Assembly: GCA_030427245.1 (NCBI GenBank)
Contig: JAUHXA010000002.1
Span: 62,001 to 126,000 of the forward strand
Length of the DNA stretch: 64,000 nucleotides
Source: Bacteroidia bacterium
GTDB taxonomy: Bacteria > Bacteroidota > Bacteroidia > Chitinophagales > UBA2359
Direction: 5' to 3'
The translations under genes and the position numbers were made by a program. Shown piece after piece: positions 12,770 through 54,609 of the stretch. A model generated the notes under the pieces. That model did no database searches. It saw nothing but the letters and a program-made list of their open reading frames with translations, and had not been told where the DNA came from. Numbering within the stretch: position 1 is the stretch's first letter; each line of letters starts with the position of its first letter.

Positions 12770-12902
12770 CATACTGCTGTACAAATTGATTTTTGAACCA
12801 CAAAAGTCTCAAAAGGGCACAAAAGAGATGGTTGAATTTCAGTCCTTTACTTTTGTTTTCTTTGTGCCTTTTGTGGTTGAATTAAAAATGTACAGTAGTA
12901 TG
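12770..12902. mobile_element. MITE-like element, copy A (133 bp)
   Basis: The element is bounded by CATACTGCTGTACA and TGTACAGTAGTATG, 13/14 matching terminal inverted repeats. The interior is also self-complementary: AACCACAAAAG...CTTTTGTGGTT, with nested AAGGGCACAAAAG and CTTTGTGCCTTTTG. It encodes nothing. A copy of the same 133-base length in reverse orientation lies at 53358-53490, and a degraded copy at 42171-42284. The transposase that moved it is not in this window. Confidence 0.85.
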
Positions 12903-46913: not shown

Positions 46914-47789
46914 TTACTTTGTAGGAACCACTCCCAAAGTTTCAAATCCCTTCAATGTCACCTCACTCCGAAGTCTTGGGAACATCTTCATATCAAAAGC
47001 CTCATTCGGTTCCACATTGGTCGCAAAGAAATAGACCTTTCCTTCTGCCTCCAAATATCCCACAAACCAACCCACATTGTTGCCGTTGCGGATAGACCAA
47101 CCCGTTTTGCCGCTTAGTTTATAGTCTTCATTTTCGTCAATGACCATGAGGCGTTTCATAATCGTTTCGGTTCTTTTTGTGATGGGAAGTTGGGAATTGT
47201 AAAATCGGGTGAAAAAGTCCATTTGTTGAAATTGGGTGATATTGGAGTTGCCTTCAAGCCAAAAGTGGTCAATAGTAGCCGAATCCACCAAGATGTTTCC
47301 ATTGGCATAATCGAATTTTTGAAGGTGGGCTTTCATTCTTTCTACGCCAATTTTTCGAGCGATTTCTTGGTAACAAGGCACACAGGAGAAGTGAAAAGCA
47401 TCTCTGAAAATCAAATCTTGCTCCCAGTTTTTCAAACGTCTTTTTTTGCCATCCCATTTGAAGAGTGTGCTGTCGTTTTCGACTACGCCTGTTTCGAGCG
47501 CAATGATAGAATTGGGAACTTTGAAGGTGGAAGCAGGTAGGAAACCTTTGGTGCAGCGATTGAAGTCGTTGGAGTGATAGGTTTTGGCGGCAACATCGTA
47601 AATCAAAATCGAGCCTTTCATCTCTGCGCTGTCCAGTATTTGCTGAAAAGCGGGCTCTATTTTTCTACTAATCGTGTCTTTTTCAGATTCTTCTTTTTCG
47701 GATGAAGGAAGAGTTTGCTCTGTATTTGAAGGGTTTGAAGTACAGGCTGCGAGGAAGATAAAAAGCAAAAAATATATTTTGAGATTCAT
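46914..47789 (-). CDS. Class D (OXA-like) beta-lactamase, lipoprotein
   Basis: This serine beta-lactamase hydrolyses beta-lactam antibiotics in the periplasm. All class D motifs are present: S87-T-F-K90 (active-site Ser and carboxylatable Lys) in LPASTFKVPNS, S135-C-V137 (the S-x-V motif), the omega-loop FWLEGNSNI, K228-T-G230 in LSGKTGWS, and the downstream WFVGYLE. A lipoprotein signal (FIFLAACTSNP) suggests membrane anchoring. The start MNLKIYFLLF is preferred over an ATG three codons earlier. It lies 14 bases upstream of the frameshifted small gene. It is a chromosomal gene with no adjacent integron or IS. Confidence 0.93.
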   Translation of the reverse strand: MNLKIYFLLFIFLAACTSNPSNTEQTLPSSEKEESEKDTISRKIEPAFQQILDSAEMKGSILIYDVAAKTYHSNDFNRCTKGFLPASTFKVPNSIIALETGVVENDSTLFKWDGKKRRLKNWEQDLIFRDAFHFSCVPCYQEIARKIGVERMKAHLQKFDYANGNILVDSATIDHFWLEGNSNITQFQQMDFFTRFYNSQLPITKRTETIMKRLMVIDENEDYKLSGKTGWSIRNGNNVGWFVGYLEAEGKVYFFATNVEPNEAFDMKMFPRLRSEVTLKGFETLGVVPTK

Positions 47790-47895
47790 TTCAAACAATT
47801 AAAACATTAAGAAAAAATAAGTATTTATTTCACACATCCTCCCTCTCGCTATTCACTTCTTTCGTCCAAAGACCAATATTTATTGAAAAGCCAAA

Positions 47896-49755: not shown

Positions 49756-50976
49756 TCACCCCACCTCTACAATATGCCCCACAAACTCCGCATCATCATC
49801 AATAATCAAATCATCCTGTCGCCGAAAACACAAAGCACAAGCCTCCCCTGTCCAGTAGATACTCGGTTGATAGCGGTATTCTTCGTGGTCCTCATTGAAG
49901 TCGGCCAATTCTTGATAGACCGAATCTTGGTCGCCAAAGTCACCCTCCGTTTCGTATTCGGGTTTTTTTGAGCCATTGTGGAAAGAAACATTTTCTCCCA
50001 TTCTCCCAAAAATTGGTTTACGGACGTATTTGTGGTTGTAAAAGTCGTGAGCATGGAAAGTGGTCTTCAATAGATGGGCATGTATGGGCGACAGGTCGTA
50101 CATATATTTCATGATCGCTTTCGATTGCAGCAACATCGAATAAGCAGGATTCATGATCACACACAAACGATTGCGGACGATTTTCTCCAAAATATCCCAC
50201 AATTCAGGTTCATCATAAGCGATGATGTCCCACGGCGTGAACTTGTACCAAAAATCATAACGGGTATATTCACCCGTTTTGGCCTGCATAAAAATGCCTT
50301 CCTCTTCCGAAAAAATCACCTCCTCCAAAACACTGTGTTTTATTTGGGTAAAACCCGCCATTTTTGCCGCCCGTTCAATCACCCGCATATTCAACACATC
50401 CTCTTCATATCCAAAGGTCGTCACCAAAAGATTGGCAGCTTTATCGGGATTTTGCTGCAATAGTTTTTGGAACTTTTGCTTCAAACCATGAACCAACAAG
50501 TTGAAGGGACGATGCTTCAACTGCTCATTTTCCAGTTCCCAATACAATTCTTGAATCAAAGCCGTTTCGGGCATGAGCGAACAAGTATCCGCATTGATTT
50601 CCAACATTTTGAGAACCTTGTTGTCAATCCCCCCTGCAAAATCAAAGCGACCTACCAAGTAGTTGTCCTTTTCGTGTTGAAGTGAATAGACAATCAAGGG
50701 AATAGCATGTCGAGGAATCCCCGCTTCTTTCCACGCCTTTCGATCCACAATTCGCTGTGCGGCTTCCATTGCCAAGCCAAAAAGTTCGGCTGACGCTGCT
50801 CGCATATTGTCGAGTTCAGCACGATTGACCCGCACAAAATCGTCACTAAAATACCCTTCGTTTTCGTCTGCTACAAACCACTCCAAGCCTTCTTTGCGAA
50901 GTTCGTGACGAGGAAGTGGCGGCACTGCAATGAGTCTACTATCCACCTGATGAACGAGTTGAACGACCTCCACCAA
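49756..50976 (-). CDS. Glutathionylspermidine synthase-like ATP-grasp ligase (YgiC/YjfC family)
   Basis: This 406-residue protein is homologous to the synthetase half of glutathionylspermidine synthase (PF03738), an ATP-grasp enzyme that forms amide bonds between a carboxylate and a polyamine amine. Family phrases include LKMLEINADTCSLMPETALI, WYKFTPWDIIAYDEPELWDI, LCVIMNPAYSMLLQSKAIMK, KPIFGRMGENVSF and QPSIYWTGEACALCFRRQDD. No amidase domain is fused. The gene overlaps the YgiB-like gene by 38 bases, a pairing like E. coli ygiB-ygiC, and SpeE- and SpeD-like genes lie divergently next door. The acceptor is unknown. Confidence 0.9.
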   Translation of the reverse strand: MVEVVQLVHQVDSRLIAVPPLPRHELRKEGLEWFVADENEGYFSDDFVRVNRAELDNMRAASAELFGLAMEAAQRIVDRKAWKEAGIPRHAIPLIVYSLQHEKDNYLVGRFDFAGGIDNKVLKMLEINADTCSLMPETALIQELYWELENEQLKHRPFNLLVHGLKQKFQKLLQQNPDKAANLLVTTFGYEEDVLNMRVIERAAKMAGFTQIKHSVLEEVIFSEEEGIFMQAKTGEYTRYDFWYKFTPWDIIAYDEPELWDILEKIVRNRLCVIMNPAYSMLLQSKAIMKYMYDLSPIHAHLLKTTFHAHDFYNHKYVRKPIFGRMGENVSFHNGSKKPEYETEGDFGDQDSVYQELADFNEDHEEYRYQPSIYWTGEACALCFRRQDDLIIDDDAEFVGHIVEVG

Positions 50977-51469
50977 AGCCCGATTTTCCAGAAGCTGGAC
51001 GGGTACGAGTGGTGCGAGCCGCAGTTTGCTGCATTTTGTTTCCTGCTTGTTGATTCACACGCTGATGTGTTTTGGGGTCGGTATAGGCACTTGCTCGTGG
51101 TCGGCTTGCCATCGAACGTCCCATAAAATACCCCATCAATCCATAAGAGGCTGCTGTCCAGATTCCTCCGTGTGCCCCACCAACTTGTGATTGTTGCATC
51201 AAACGTATTTCAGCGAGGGTAAAAGTGTCGACTTTTGCATCCATGTACTTGGCAACGACCAAACTTTGAGAAGTATCTGCAATCGTTTGTTCGTCTTCAA
51301 TTTTGAACAAATCCTTTTCGACTTCTTGCAAGACAGTTATCAAGCCCTCTGTGGGCAATACGACCTCCTCTGTCACCGTTTCGCTACCACCACATGCAGT
51401 GAGAAGAAAAAAGGTGAAGGCAGTTAAAAAAGACAGCCGAGAAAGGAGTATTTTCTTTGTTTGCTTCAT
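50939..51469 (-). CDS. YgiB/YjfM-like lipoprotein (DUF1190 type)
   Basis: This 176-residue lipoprotein has a signal peptide with a lipobox (FFLLTACGGSE) and a middle region with QVGGAHGGIWTAASYGLMGY. The C-terminal tail is rich in Gly, Ser, Arg and Thr (SGKSGFGGGRSTRSSGG). Tail composition and the partner gene match the YgiB/YjfM family. Its C-terminal coding end overlaps the ATP-grasp ligase start, implying coupled translation. The Gly/Arg-rich tail could be a target of conjugation, which is speculation. Confidence 0.75.
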   Translation of the reverse strand: MKQTKKILLSRLSFLTAFTFFLLTACGGSETVTEEVVLPTEGLITVLQEVEKDLFKIEDEQTIADTSQSLVVAKYMDAKVDTFTLAEIRLMQQSQVGGAHGGIWTAASYGLMGYFMGRSMASRPRASAYTDPKTHQRVNQQAGNKMQQTAARTTRTRPASGKSGFGGGRSTRSSGG

Positions 51470-51506
51470 AAGTTAAACATTTATGTTTGCTGAGATGTAT
51501 GTGTGA

Positions 51507-51535
51507 CAAATATAGTGTTTTTCATACAAATCAAA
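51507..51535 (-). promoter_or_regulatory. Promoter of the ygiB-ygiC-like pair
   Basis: On the minus strand TTTG (51535 to 51532), 17 bases, then TATATTTG (51514 to 51507), fits the Bacteroidota consensus with slightly short spacing. Transcription would start near 51500, giving a leader of about 30 bases. Confidence 0.55.
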
Positions 51536-51725
51536 TCTTTAAATAAAAAAGAGACTCCACAAGTTCGCTATCAACTAAAGAAAATTTCATAGTTCCAATC
51601 AATGAAATGAATTCAAAGTGAAAAACTTTTGAAGTCTCAACTTAACTAAGAACCAACACATAGAAAAGAAAGTTTCACAAGTTGGTTATATTGTGCGCTT
51701 AATTTTTTACCCAAAAAACATCCAT

Positions 51726-53276
51726 ATGCTTCAAGAAGCAAGCCCAAGAGAACGGCTCGTATTTTTCCTAACGGTTTTCATTGCAGGGCTCTGTTCGTTG
51801 ATTTACGAACTACTTATAAGCACAACTTCCTCCTATTTTTTGGGAGACAGTGTAACGCAATTTTCGCTCACGATAGGTGTGTATATGGCTGCAATGGGTT
51901 TGGGATCTTACCTTTCGCAGTTCATTGAAGACGACTTGTTGGATTGGTTTGTAAAGATTGAAGTCCTGTTGGGTTTGACGGGTGGCGTAAGTGTACCTGT
52001 ATTGTATTTCGTTTTTGGCAATCTGACCACTTTTGAGTATCAGTTTATTATGTTGGCTTTGACCACAGTGATAGGCACTTTGACGGGTTTCGAGATTCCT
52101 CTATTGGTGCGTATTTTGAAGAAACACTATCCATTGAAATCCAATTTGGCTTATGTGTTGAGTTTGGATTATATTGGCGCATTGTTGGCGACCTTGCTGT
52201 TTCCTTTTTTGTTGTTGCCCTTTGTGGGAATTTTTCGAACATCTTTAGCGTTTGGTTTGGTGAATGTGTTATTGGGATTGTTTATCTATCGTTTTTTCAC
52301 CCAAGAACTATCGGTCAAACGTAAGCAGGGACTGCAATGGGCAGCTATGGCAGTAGTGCTTCTGTTTGTGATGATGGGCATTTTTGCAGGAAAATTGTTG
52401 AAGCATTGGGAAGATGATTTTTACACCAGTCAACTGATTTACTCCAAACAAACACCTTACCAAGACCTCGTTTTGACCAAAAACAAAGACGACTTGCACC
52501 TGTACATCAATCACATCATACAGTTTTCATCTTTGGACGAATACCGCTATCATGAAGCCTTGGGTTTGTTGCCTTTGAATGTCGCACCTGTCAAAAAAAA
52601 GGTCTTGATTTTGGGAGGTGGTGAAGGTTTATTGGCGAGGGAGGTATTGAAGTTTCAGGAGGTAGAGTCGGTGAAAATTGTGGATTTGGATGCGGCGGTT
52701 TTTCACTTGGCAAAGGAAAATACGCACATTCGCAACTTGAACAATGCCGCTCTCTTCAATGCAAAAGTGGAGTTGATTGCAGAAGATGCCATGCAGTTTT
52801 TGCAGCAAACGGACGAAAAATTTGATGTCATTTTATCGGATTTGCCCGACCCCTCCAATGAATCCTTGTCGAGACTGTACAGTACGATATTTTATAAATT
52901 GATACAACGTCGCTTGACCAAAGAGGGCATTTTTGCGACTCAAGCCACTGGTCCTTTTCACACGCACAAGGCGTTTTGGTGCATTCACGAAACATTGAAA
53001 GCGAGCGGCTTTGAGTATATTTACCCCTATCATGCCTATGTCCCTTCGTTTGGGGATTGGGGGTTTGTGATAGCGAGTCACAGTGAATTGCAGCCACATG
53101 TTTTTGAAGCGAAAGTTCCTACAAAATATTTGGACAGTTTACAGGTTTCAAAAATGTTTTACTTTGAAAAGGACATTGACCGACCCGATGATATTGCCGT
53201 TAATCGAATGGACGATGCGGTGTTGATGCACTATTTTTTGGAGGATTGGCGGAGATGGCAGAAGAAGGAACATTGA
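51726..53276 (+). CDS. Membrane-embedded aminopropyltransferase (spermidine synthase-like)
   Basis: The 516 residues divide into an N-terminal domain of about six or seven membrane helices (FIAGLCSLIYELLISTTSSY is the conserved start) and a C-terminal SpeE-type Rossmann domain from about residue 235. The SAM-site phrase is KVLILGGGEGLLAREVLKFQ, followed by VKIVDLDAAV, IAEDAMQFL and the catalytic-loop DVILSDLPDPSNESLSRLYS. It would transfer aminopropyl from decarboxylated SAM to a polyamine or membrane-associated acceptor. SpeD, which makes that donor, is the next gene. The ATG at MLQEASPRERL is preferred over an upstream GTG. Confidence 0.9.
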   Translation: MLQEASPRERLVFFLTVFIAGLCSLIYELLISTTSSYFLGDSVTQFSLTIGVYMAAMGLGSYLSQFIEDDLLDWFVKIEVLLGLTGGVSVPVLYFVFGNLTTFEYQFIMLALTTVIGTLTGFEIPLLVRILKKHYPLKSNLAYVLSLDYIGALLATLLFPFLLLPFVGIFRTSLAFGLVNVLLGLFIYRFFTQELSVKRKQGLQWAAMAVVLLFVMMGIFAGKLLKHWEDDFYTSQLIYSKQTPYQDLVLTKNKDDLHLYINHIIQFSSLDEYRYHEALGLLPLNVAPVKKKVLILGGGEGLLAREVLKFQEVESVKIVDLDAAVFHLAKENTHIRNLNNAALFNAKVELIAEDAMQFLQQTDEKFDVILSDLPDPSNESLSRLYSTIFYKLIQRRLTKEGIFATQATGPFHTHKAFWCIHETLKASGFEYIYPYHAYVPSFGDWGFVIASHSELQPHVFEAKVPTKYLDSLQVSKMFYFEKDIDRPDDIAVNRMDDAVLMHYFLEDWRRWQKKEH

Positions 53277-53357
53277 AAATTCAAAGCACAAATGCAAACT
53301 CAAAAGCTTAATGATAAGCGTTTGAAATAAAACGAAAAATCACTTAACCTTCAATAT

Positions 53358-53490
53358 CATACTACTGTACATTTTTAATTCAACCACAAAAGGCACAAAG
53401 AAAACAAAAGTAAAGAACTGAAATTCAACCATCTCTTTTGTGCCCTTTTGAGACTTTTGTGGTTCAAAAATCATTTTGTACAGCAGTATG
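53358..53490. mobile_element. MITE-like element, copy C (133 bp), ending on the speD start codon
   Basis: This is the reverse-oriented equivalent of copy A with the same length: CATACTACTGTACA to TGTACAGCAGTATG. The interior is nearly identical to copy A. The last three bases, ATG, serve as the probable start codon of speD. The element therefore lies between the aminopropyltransferase gene and speD and may supply the speD leader or promoter. Confidence 0.85.
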
Positions 53491-53901
53491 CTTCAATATA
53501 TACTAAAATCAAATTCGACTGTTCTTAATTTGAAAGCTCTTGGAAAACATATTATTTTGGAACTCTACGATTGTCCTTCCGACTTATTGAGCGACCCCAT
53601 TGAAGTGCAACGCATCTTGGAAACGGCTGCTTTGACGATGGGTGCAACAATTGTGGAAAGCAGATTCCATCACTTTTCACCTCTCGGTGTTTCGGGTGTG
53701 ATCATCATCATGGAAAGTCACCTCACGATTCATACATGGCCCGAATATGGCTATGCGGCGGTGGACATTTTCACTTGTGGAATTTTGGATATTGAAGCGG
53801 GAGTGGATTTGATGAGCAGGGAATTGAAGGCGAAGAAGGTGGAGAGGGAGATGATTGAGAGGGGGAAGAAACTCCCAATTCAAAGTACAAATTTAAAGTA
53901 A
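53488..53901 (+). CDS. speD: S-adenosylmethionine decarboxylase proenzyme
   Basis: SpeD makes decarboxylated SAM, the aminopropyl donor of spermidine synthesis. This 137-residue class 1 prokaryotic form shows the self-processing site in MESHLTIHTWPEYGYAAVDI, where the Ser of ESH becomes the pyruvoyl group, and the conserved FTCG just after. The core family start ALGKHIILELYDC is preceded by about 17 extra residues. The ATG is the last codon of the MITE-like element; a TTG at 53530 would give MKALGKHI and is an equally reasonable native start. Confidence 0.93.
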   Translation: MLQYILKSNSTVLNLKALGKHIILELYDCPSDLLSDPIEVQRILETAALTMGATIVESRFHHFSPLGVSGVIIIMESHLTIHTWPEYGYAAVDIFTCGILDIEAGVDLMSRELKAKKVEREMIERGKKLPIQSTNLK

Positions 53902-53968: not shown

Positions 53969-54238
53969 ATGAAGACCATTACCATACCAGAAGCTGAATA
54001 CCTGCAAATGCAGCAAACCATCAATATGCTTCAACAACAATTGACAATGCTCAAAGATGAAAGTTTTTTGGCAAAACTAAATTTAGCGTATCACTTGTTT
54101 GTTACTCCCATAAGAGTAACAGAAAATATCGAATCCTTCAAACCCGTTTCATTAAAACGAGGTTCTGCAAAAAAAATGATTACTTATATGGCAGATGATT
54201 TTACTGCTCTTATAGATGATTTCAACGAGTATATGTAA
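53969..54238 (+). CDS. Antitoxin candidate of a VapBC-like pair
   Basis: This 89-residue protein starts MKTITIPEAEYLQMQQTINM, a short strand plus coiled-coil helix, and ends with VSLKRGSAKKMITYMADDFT, a phrase like DUF2281-type antitoxins (with D-F and an acidic end) that pair with PIN toxins. The next gene, a PIN-domain protein, starts two bases after its stop. Repression of its own promoter is likely but not visible. Confidence 0.78.
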   Translation: MKTITIPEAEYLQMQQTINMLQQQLTMLKDESFLAKLNLAYHLFVTPIRVTENIESFKPVSLKRGSAKKMITYMADDFTALIDDFNEYM

Positions 54239-54240
54239 TA

Positions 54241-54609
54241 ATGGAAATACTTTTGGACACGCATATTTTACTTTGGCACTTGACTGACAACCCCAATTTG
54301 AGTCGAGAAAAAAGCGACTTAATTGAAAATCCTTCAAATAGTATCTTTTTCAGTATGGCTAGTTTATGGGAAATAGCCATCAAAACGAGTATTGGAAAAT
54401 TAACTGTCACTGCTCCAATTGAAAACCTTGTTCCTATTGAAGTACAAATTCTGCAAATTAATATCCCGCATTTGAAAATAATGCAATCCTTACCATTTCA
54501 TCATAAAGACCCTTTTGATAGACTTATTATTTCCCAAGCTATTGCAGAAAACTTAGTGCTAATGACTGATGATGAAAAATTTAAATACTATAATATTCAC
54601 CTAATATGA
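54241..54609 (+). CDS. PIN-domain toxin (VapC-like ribonuclease)
   Basis: This 122-residue PIN-domain nuclease has the first acidic residue in EILLDTHILLWHLTD, the middle acid in ASLWEIAIKT, and the C-terminal DPFDRLIISQAIAENLVLMTDDEKF, matching the VapC subgroup with LLDTH and DPFDR. These Asp/Glu residues bind the metal used for RNA cleavage. All appear intact, so the toxin should be active and held by the upstream antitoxin. No frameshift is seen. Confidence 0.9.
   Translation: MEILLDTHILLWHLTDNPNLSREKSDLIENPSNSIFFSMASLWEIAIKTSIGKLTVTAPIENLVPIEVQILQINIPHLKIMQSLPFHHKDPFDRLIISQAIAENLVLMTDDEKFKYYNIHLI

Follow-up and report, generated by a model that had tools for sequence, protein, structure and literature searches.

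We analysed a window of 64,000 nucleotides of a Bacteroidia bacterium (contig JAUHXA010000002.1, positions 62,001 to 126,000 of the forward strand; coordinates below are those of the window), and in it a compact four-gene locus at 49756-53901, which a preliminary description made from the sequence had read as a locus for polyamine conjugation. All four open reading frames (ORFs) were confirmed at this place, and Pfam supports the assignments to the ligase, Spermine_synth and AdoMet_dc families. The four genes form one module: on the minus strand the lipoprotein gene is followed by the ligase gene, and the genes for a membrane SpeE and for SpeD lie on the plus strand, divergent from this pair. 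The features are the following:

49756-50976, minus strand: PF03738 ATP-grasp amide ligase of the YgiC/YjfC/GspS-synthetase type, without amidase domain; likely start GTG at 50946.
50939-51469, minus strand: membrane lipoprotein, candidate carrier; lipobox LLTAC, folded body at about residues 31-158.
50942-50980, minus strand: C-terminal tail of the lipoprotein, residues 164-176, GFGGGRSTRSSGG-stop; predicted to be disordered yet conserved, candidate polyamine acceptor.
51470-51692, no strand: intergenic region separating the lipoprotein-ligase pair from the membrane-SpeE gene; the two are divergent in 15 of 16 loci.
51693-53276, plus strand: membrane aminopropyltransferase with seven predicted transmembrane helices and a C-terminal SpeE domain, predicted to be extracytoplasmic.
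53476-53901, plus strand: SpeD, class 1b S-adenosylmethionine (AdoMet) decarboxylase (AdoMetDC), with processing site E80/S81, H86, C101 and Pro89.

The ligase matches PF03738 (GSP_synth) with an E-value of 1.8e-74 and 251.6 bits, against a curated cut-off of 29.3. This is its sole Pfam match, and the enzyme lacks the amidase domain of the bifunctional GspSA, as had been described. The overlap of ligase and lipoprotein genes is present as well, although its extent had to be corrected: the longest ORF gives 38 nt, while the likely true start, the GTG at 50946, leaves 8 nt (GTGGATAG) shared with the last lipoprotein codons. Solved proteins among the sequence matches of the ligase are YjfC, YgiC, GspS and trypanothione synthetase; identity to YgiC, YjfC and GspS is 22-23%, and the nearest named ligase comes from a Saprospiraceae metagenome-assembled genome (MAG, 51% identity). 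In an alignment of seven sequences the residues R110, D112, E126, N128, K286, K320, R325, Q355 and R385 are invariant between the ligase, YgiC, YjfC and GspS, and we take these columns to be the metal, ATP and substrate contacts of GspS (no open paper listing GspS-type contact residues turned up in our literature search). As judged from this alignment the ATP-grasp catalytic residues are intact, and the loss of metal or ATP residues, raised in the preliminary description as a possible objection, was not observed.

The lipoprotein carries the lipobox LLTAC and a tail rich in Gly, Ser and Arg. It had been called YgiB-like, which holds for its position, its lipoprotein nature and its tail but not for its family: no Pfam match was obtained, hence by profile it is not a DUF1190 (PF06693) protein, the family matched by both YgiB and YjfM of E. 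coli. Nine lipoproteins from related genomes were aligned, and fourteen when named records were included. The typical C-terminus is G[FY]G-x(2-6)-[KR]S-x-[KR]S-x-GG-COOH, with exceptions in L021 (ending FSG) and L022 (NFGSRSSTRSFGG). Mean pairwise identity among the fourteen is 0.74 over residues 164-176 and 0.39 over body residues 27-158, the best 13-residue window of the body reaching 0.56, and conservation of the tail extends to the last residue and the position of the stop. In an AlphaFold2 model built on an alignment of only 14 rows, residues 162-170 and 174-176 have a predicted local distance difference test (pLDDT) score below 50, while the ten-residue blocks of 41-150 average at least 90, except 91-100 (71). 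A tail that looks flexible in this model is nevertheless the best-conserved part of the protein, which is how a linear substrate or binding motif would look.

No fold could be assigned to the body, for which Foldseek gave no match with E below 0.7. In profile comparisons the bodies of window-type, Cytophagales and Campylobacterota lipoproteins matched one another with 98.3-99.9% probability, while DUF1190 (2 rows) and small carriers of 110-126 aa (3 rows) gave no significant body match; the value for the window-type profile against DUF1190, with its 2 rows only, was 8.8%. A GYMMGR-like motif, common to window-type lipoproteins and YgiB, hints at remote homology of these carriers, and we do not claim that they are unrelated.

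Occurrence of the genes was followed in 119 related genomes, the own genome included, of which 14 have a PF03738 match, 18 have SpeD and 84 have PF01564 matches, mostly weak ones. The lipoprotein family was found by profile search in 11 of the 119, all of them within the 14 PF03738 genomes (Fisher p 3e-13, uncorrected for phylogeny), and as far as these searches go the lipoprotein is phyletically tied to the ligase. In the three other ligase genomes (G063, G106, G114) the ligase is preceded, at a distance of 11 to 339 nt, by a small lipoprotein of another kind. Profile-found lipoproteins stand at 13 places, three of which also supplied rows of the search profile; eleven end in GG and two, both in G007, in SG.

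The C-terminus was then surveyed at 94 ligase loci, with two duplicates (L071, L073) and the partial L116 and L028 left out. A partner was defined as an upstream ORF on the same strand, with a hydrophobic N-terminus and a tail rich in G/S/T/R/K/N/P. Such a partner is present at 71 loci, E. coli and the window included, and the last residue is G, S or A in all 71. GG is the end of 52 partners, followed by SS and GS (5 each), HS and GA (2 each) and VS, SG, HG, RS and IS (single cases). As a background, 7 of 1059 other long ORFs of L036-L115 end in GG, two of these seven being partner copies. Of the 23 loci without partner, three are at contig ends (L019, L046, L113), one (L082) has a partner-like ORF whose tail is aberrant, and at L057 a G/S/R tail ending SG failed the hydrophobicity filter; a tail-bearing ORF lies farther upstream at L049, L052, L064, L065 (ending SS) and L087 (GG), and at the remaining ones none was found. 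In further genomes the GG end appears in G273 and G185, GGG in G208 and GS in G296, while partners in G207, G265 and G444 end in SS or HA. In E. coli, where the genes for YgiB and YjfM lie directly upstream of ygiC and yjfC, YgiB ends ..SSRSMGG and YjfM ..SARGHWGG (..RGGYGRSSSARGHWGG); RefSeq names YgiC and YjfC peptide--spermidine ligases.

A separate observation concerns other Bacteroidota (L016, L017, L126, L127), in which the lipoprotein partner has about 110-121 aa and an R-G-rich tail ending SS or HA, not GG.

Since the window ligase has its GTG start inside the terminal Gly codons, and an overlap of a few bases with the ligase is frequent among the partners, the Gly-Gly end might be a by-product of gene overlap, in which GGN GGN codons provide the ribosome-binding site or start of the ligase. 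The distribution of the motif makes this very improbable. Among 23 partners separated from the ligase by gaps of at least 25 nt, 14 end in GG, and their gaps are 31 to 469 nt. In G001 the lipoprotein, whose 7.8-kb contig carries no ligase, ends GG, and no lipoprotein of the window family is present in the 19.5 kb read of the ligase contig; in G002 two GG-ending lipoproteins stand on a contig other than that of the ligase. The lipoprotein and ligase ends of G002 are at contig edges, so they may be linked across the break; the distance between the ligase and the nearer stop would then still exceed 270 nt. Each of the four Gly codons is found at the GG end, and the upstream G[FY]G and S residues are conserved too. 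On the evidence of these distant and unlinked loci we rejected the idea that Gly-Gly arises from gene overlap or a Shine-Dalgarno site.

GspS joins spermidine to the C-terminal Gly carboxylate of glutathione, and from this we infer that the ligase may conjugate a polyamine to the lipoprotein tail. The reading to which we lean, by a modest degree, is that the locus encodes a protein-polyamine conjugation module in which the ligase would amidate the C-terminal Gly carboxylate of the lipoprotein. The tail had been named before as one possible acceptor; comparison of the sequences strengthens this suggestion and narrows it to the C-terminal Gly carboxylate. The ligase, using ATP, would phosphorylate this carboxylate and then form an amide between the activated tail and an amine of a polyamine, in the way in which GspS treats the Gly of glutathione. 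Because ATP is cytoplasmic, conjugation would take place on the prolipoprotein, before or during export, an order in keeping with the gene overlap. With less confidence, we suggest that SpeD would make decarboxylated AdoMet and that the membrane SpeE would add aminopropyl groups to the polyamine at the membrane, perhaps to the amine already conjugated. This would yield a lipoprotein whose tail is strongly cationic and which could bind anionic envelope material.

Several points weigh against conjugation of the tail. The mature lipoprotein is outside the cytoplasm and ATP inside, so that the reaction has to come before export or coincide with it. Nor can a Gly acceptor be general, as 19 of the 71 partners have no GG end, and 23 of the 94 loci have no partner by our definition; partners were moreover chosen partly by tail composition, which inflates the GG comparison, and the low pLDDT of the tail derives from the 14-row alignment. 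What ties SpeD and SpeE to the ligase pathway is neighbourhood and co-occurrence, and four of five Cytophagales-type pair-bearing genomes examined have no membrane SpeE match. Finally, conservation of the tail might instead reflect a role in docking.

The last point belongs to an alternative that we regard as unlikely, though deserving of attention, namely that the ligase makes a small polyamine-peptide metabolite similar to glutathionylspermidine, while the lipoprotein tail docks the ligase or the lipoprotein senses the product. The solved relatives GspS and trypanothione synthetase act on glutathione; the ligase retains residues found in GspS, among them R325 and R385, and a docking motif would equally show tail conservation. 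Conservation up to the last residue and stop would be unusual for an internal docking motif, however, and the lipoprotein is present only together with the ligase. Among the four genes there is also no separate peptide gene of at least 80 aa, shorter ORFs not having been searched.

SpeD matches PF02675 (AdoMet_dc, E 1.6e-37) and, aligned to the T. maritima enzyme, keeps E80/S81, H86 and C101. Its Pro89, at the HTWPE position, was taken as the Pro which, in the available text of PMC10407285, apparently separates AdoMetDC from arginine decarboxylase (ADC). A neofunctionalised ADC or ornithine decarboxylase was considered for SpeD and is not favoured. The product of 51693-53276 matches PF01564 (Spermine_synth, E 3.7e-37) behind an N-terminal membrane region, and its SpeE domain is most like the Thermus triamine/agmatine aminopropyltransferase and thermospermine synthase. 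The active-site residues Q277, D282, E283, Y286, H287, E288, D333, D365, D383 and D386 are conserved in 41 of 41 homologs. By these alignments the active sites of SpeD and of the SpeE domain are intact.

Seven helices of at least 23 residues precede the SpeE domain in the structure model; hydropathy alone fails to split helices 5 and 6. The mean number of Lys plus Arg per loop is 2.9 (N), 0.5 (L1), 2.6 (L2), 0.2 (L3), 2.7 (L4), 0.6 (L5) and 3.4 (L6), and this N-in charge bias was noticed in 41 of 41 membrane-SpeE homologs, the window protein having no K/R in its own L2. The charge bias together with seven helices places the SpeE domain outside the cytoplasm; it is thus predicted to lie on the outer face of the inner membrane, a prediction which a mis-counted helix would reverse, and suggests that aminopropylation takes place in the envelope. 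The simple order first described, in which the product of the membrane SpeE goes to the ligase, does not follow with a SpeE domain outside the cytoplasm; SpeE may act before or after the ligase. An improbable elaboration would make of the locus a membrane-spanning factory, in which the cytoplasmic ligase would prime the C-terminal Gly of the prolipoprotein with a short polyamine and, once the protein is exported, the SpeE domain facing the periplasm would lengthen the tail with aminopropyl groups from decarboxylated AdoMet; the transporter-like membrane part of SpeE would move decarboxylated AdoMet across, and the lipoprotein would become an envelope carrier of a long cationic chain. We know of no extracytoplasmic supply of decarboxylated AdoMet.

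Elsewhere the own genome has a cluster of a pyridoxal phosphate (PLP) decarboxylase (PF02784), a deoxyhypusine-synthase-like protein of the SpeY type (PF01916) and an arginase-family protein (PF00491), in which the decarboxylase scores 96.9 and 54.8 bits, well under the 624.1 bits set as the limit for speA. By analogy with what the available text of PMC10407285 describes, this cluster would be expected to make homospermidine. With such a separate cluster the SpeD and SpeE of the locus are probably not the bulk triamine route and probably have a dedicated role. Dependence of the genome on the locus for triamine, which had also been considered, is weakened by the same cluster. The genome has no match to nspC or DUF350 (PF03994), and its only other PF01564 match is weak (40 bits).

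That the locus is an ordinary spermidine pathway feeding the cytoplasmic pool we hold to be quite improbable. The active-site residues kept in SpeD and SpeE, the lack of an nspC match and the weakness of the second PF01564 match would fit it; against it stand the PLP-decarboxylase, SpeY-type and arginase-family genes clustered elsewhere and the fusion of SpeE to seven transmembrane helices, with its domain predicted outside the cytoplasm. Li et al. 2019, by its title, reportedly assigns to AdoMetDC a polyamine-independent role, which also speaks against it.

How closely SpeD and SpeE belong to the pair was judged from 16 distinct loci, chosen for a full-length membrane SpeE near the ligase (the duplicates L071 and L073 left out). 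Fifteen are divergent and 12 also have SpeD, found after SpeE, after the ligase or convergent with the ligase; the four without SpeD (L021, L022, L023, L029) are on contigs ending near the cluster on at least one side. The four genes do co-occur in related genomes, and a lack of conserved co-occurrence, raised in the preliminary description as a possible objection, was not observed. The loci are mostly Saprospiraceae-type records; beyond these, the joined pair and membrane SpeE occur in the Chitinophagales-labelled L071 and the Aquimarina MAG L109. The pair has no adjoining SpeE at L041, L042, L045 and L056, and often no SpeD or membrane SpeE nearby in Cytophagales, Campylobacterota and E. coli. 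A phylum set of 374 genomes, each at least 90% complete, contains 30 with the ligase (scoring above 250 bits in 18) and 27 with a full-length membrane SpeE (scoring above 400 bits); the two are found together only in G000, G048, G060 and G273, adjacent in three. Being so rarely together, the pair and the membrane SpeE are two separate units of wider occurrence, and the ligase-lipoprotein pair is a wider unit than the quartet.

There is a further alternative, which we find quite conceivable although we would still call it doubtful: SpeD and the membrane SpeE may do a job independent of the ligase, for example aminopropylation of lipid or glycan, and stand beside the pair through shared regulation. 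Only 4 of the 27 phylum genomes with full-length membrane SpeE have the ligase, membrane SpeE stands elsewhere beside DUF350, and the own genome holds the independent homospermidine-type cluster. On the other side, a high-scoring membrane SpeE (755-786 bits) is kept in G478, G479 and G480 though not beside the pair (in G478 it apparently shares the contig of the pair, about 23 kb away as judged by contig number; G481 has a partial one), and SpeD shifts its position yet remains clustered in 12 of the 16 loci.

Three arrangements around these genes are recorded as observations in their own right. At L030, L031, L032 and L034 a ligase-free membrane SpeE lies beside a DUF350 protein, which matches another arrangement in the available part of PMC11237479. 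At L021:1129-6750 (G007) a single strand carries the ligase, two tandem FSG-ending lipoproteins, the membrane SpeE and a soluble SpeE-like protein. At L024:11939-13234 (G020), and also in L071, the ligase of the quartet is split by an in-frame stop, with lipoprotein, SpeE and SpeD apparently intact.

Just upstream of speD lies an 85-bp element with inverted-repeat ends (AACCACAAAAG..) at 53381-53465, which has a second, inverted copy in the window at 12795-12879, identical at 84 of 85 positions; it is possibly a small mobile or repeat element. Adjoining speD, at 53969-54609, a small ORF and, after it, a PIN-domain protein (PF01850) probably form a toxin-antitoxin pair. At 46914-47798 a lipoprotein with a transpeptidase domain (PF00905) carries STFK and KTG motifs and is possibly class D beta-lactamase-like. 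A scan for promoters and terminators came out near chance, with 11 promoter-like sites (9.4 expected) and 5 terminator-like ones (4.2 expected).

YgiB-YgiC and YjfM-YjfC are widespread pairs for which we know of no agreed physiological substrate. In Bacteroidota, Campylobacterota and E. coli the tail goes together with the ligase, and it agrees with GspS chemistry; conjugation at the tail would give the YgiB-YgiC pair a directly testable job, within reach of one mass-spectrometry experiment. If the proposal is true, C-terminal polyamine amidation of envelope lipoproteins occurs in bacteria, and if the topology is also read correctly, aminopropyl chemistry occurs outside the cytoplasm. The product had been presented as undescribed. 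This may stand for the carrier-tail reading, which we did not find among the matches listed, and has to be given up for the peptide-spermidine ligase activity of YgiC/YjfC, the broader neighbourhoods and the link of ligase and AdoMetDC, all of which are already known. Among the open-access papers listed there is none that visibly connects the ligase with the C-terminus of the lipoprotein; such a connection may be made in Pederick et al. 2023, which by its title reportedly deals with peptide-spermidine ligase activity.

The window pair resembles YgiB-YgiC and YjfM-YjfC of E. coli in the ligase family, in the partner directly upstream and in the G/S/R-rich tail with GG. It differs in the partner body, which is not DUF1190, and in the ligase, at the low identity given above; unlike the window, the E. 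coli pairs have no annotated SpeD or SpeE alongside in the stretches examined. In their available portions, PMC12568646 treats YgiC and YjfC as characterised peptidylpolyamine synthetases and PMC12506659 reports YgiC to be without GspS activity. With GspSA (EC 6.3.1.8) the ligase shares a related synthetase part and conserved residues; unlike GspSA it has no amidase domain, and its acceptor is probably a protein tail, not glutathione. Ravi et al. 2024 (PMC11237479), in the text available on PspA/CesT-Tir and polyamine operons, describes one group of a 7TM-fused SpeE domain with DUF350, DUF4178 and a lipoprotein and another of a GspS-like ATP-grasp ligase with a DUF1190 lipoprotein, and credits Li et al. 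2019 with the link of ligase and AdoMetDC; that portion contains no mention of the lipoprotein C-terminus or of a protein acceptor. Unlike in those operons, both enzymes stand in the window in one compact quartet with SpeD, in a genome without DUF350. The nearest parallel for the proposed product is the spermidine conjugated to the C-terminal -LGG of SUMO, as given in the accessible part of PMC12270671, which by analogy shows that a polyamine on the Gly-Gly end of a protein is feasible. Like the product proposed here it is a polyamine amide on a C-terminal Gly-Gly; unlike the window system, it is made by eukaryotic E1/E2 chemistry and not by an ATP-grasp ligase, and its acceptor is not an envelope protein.

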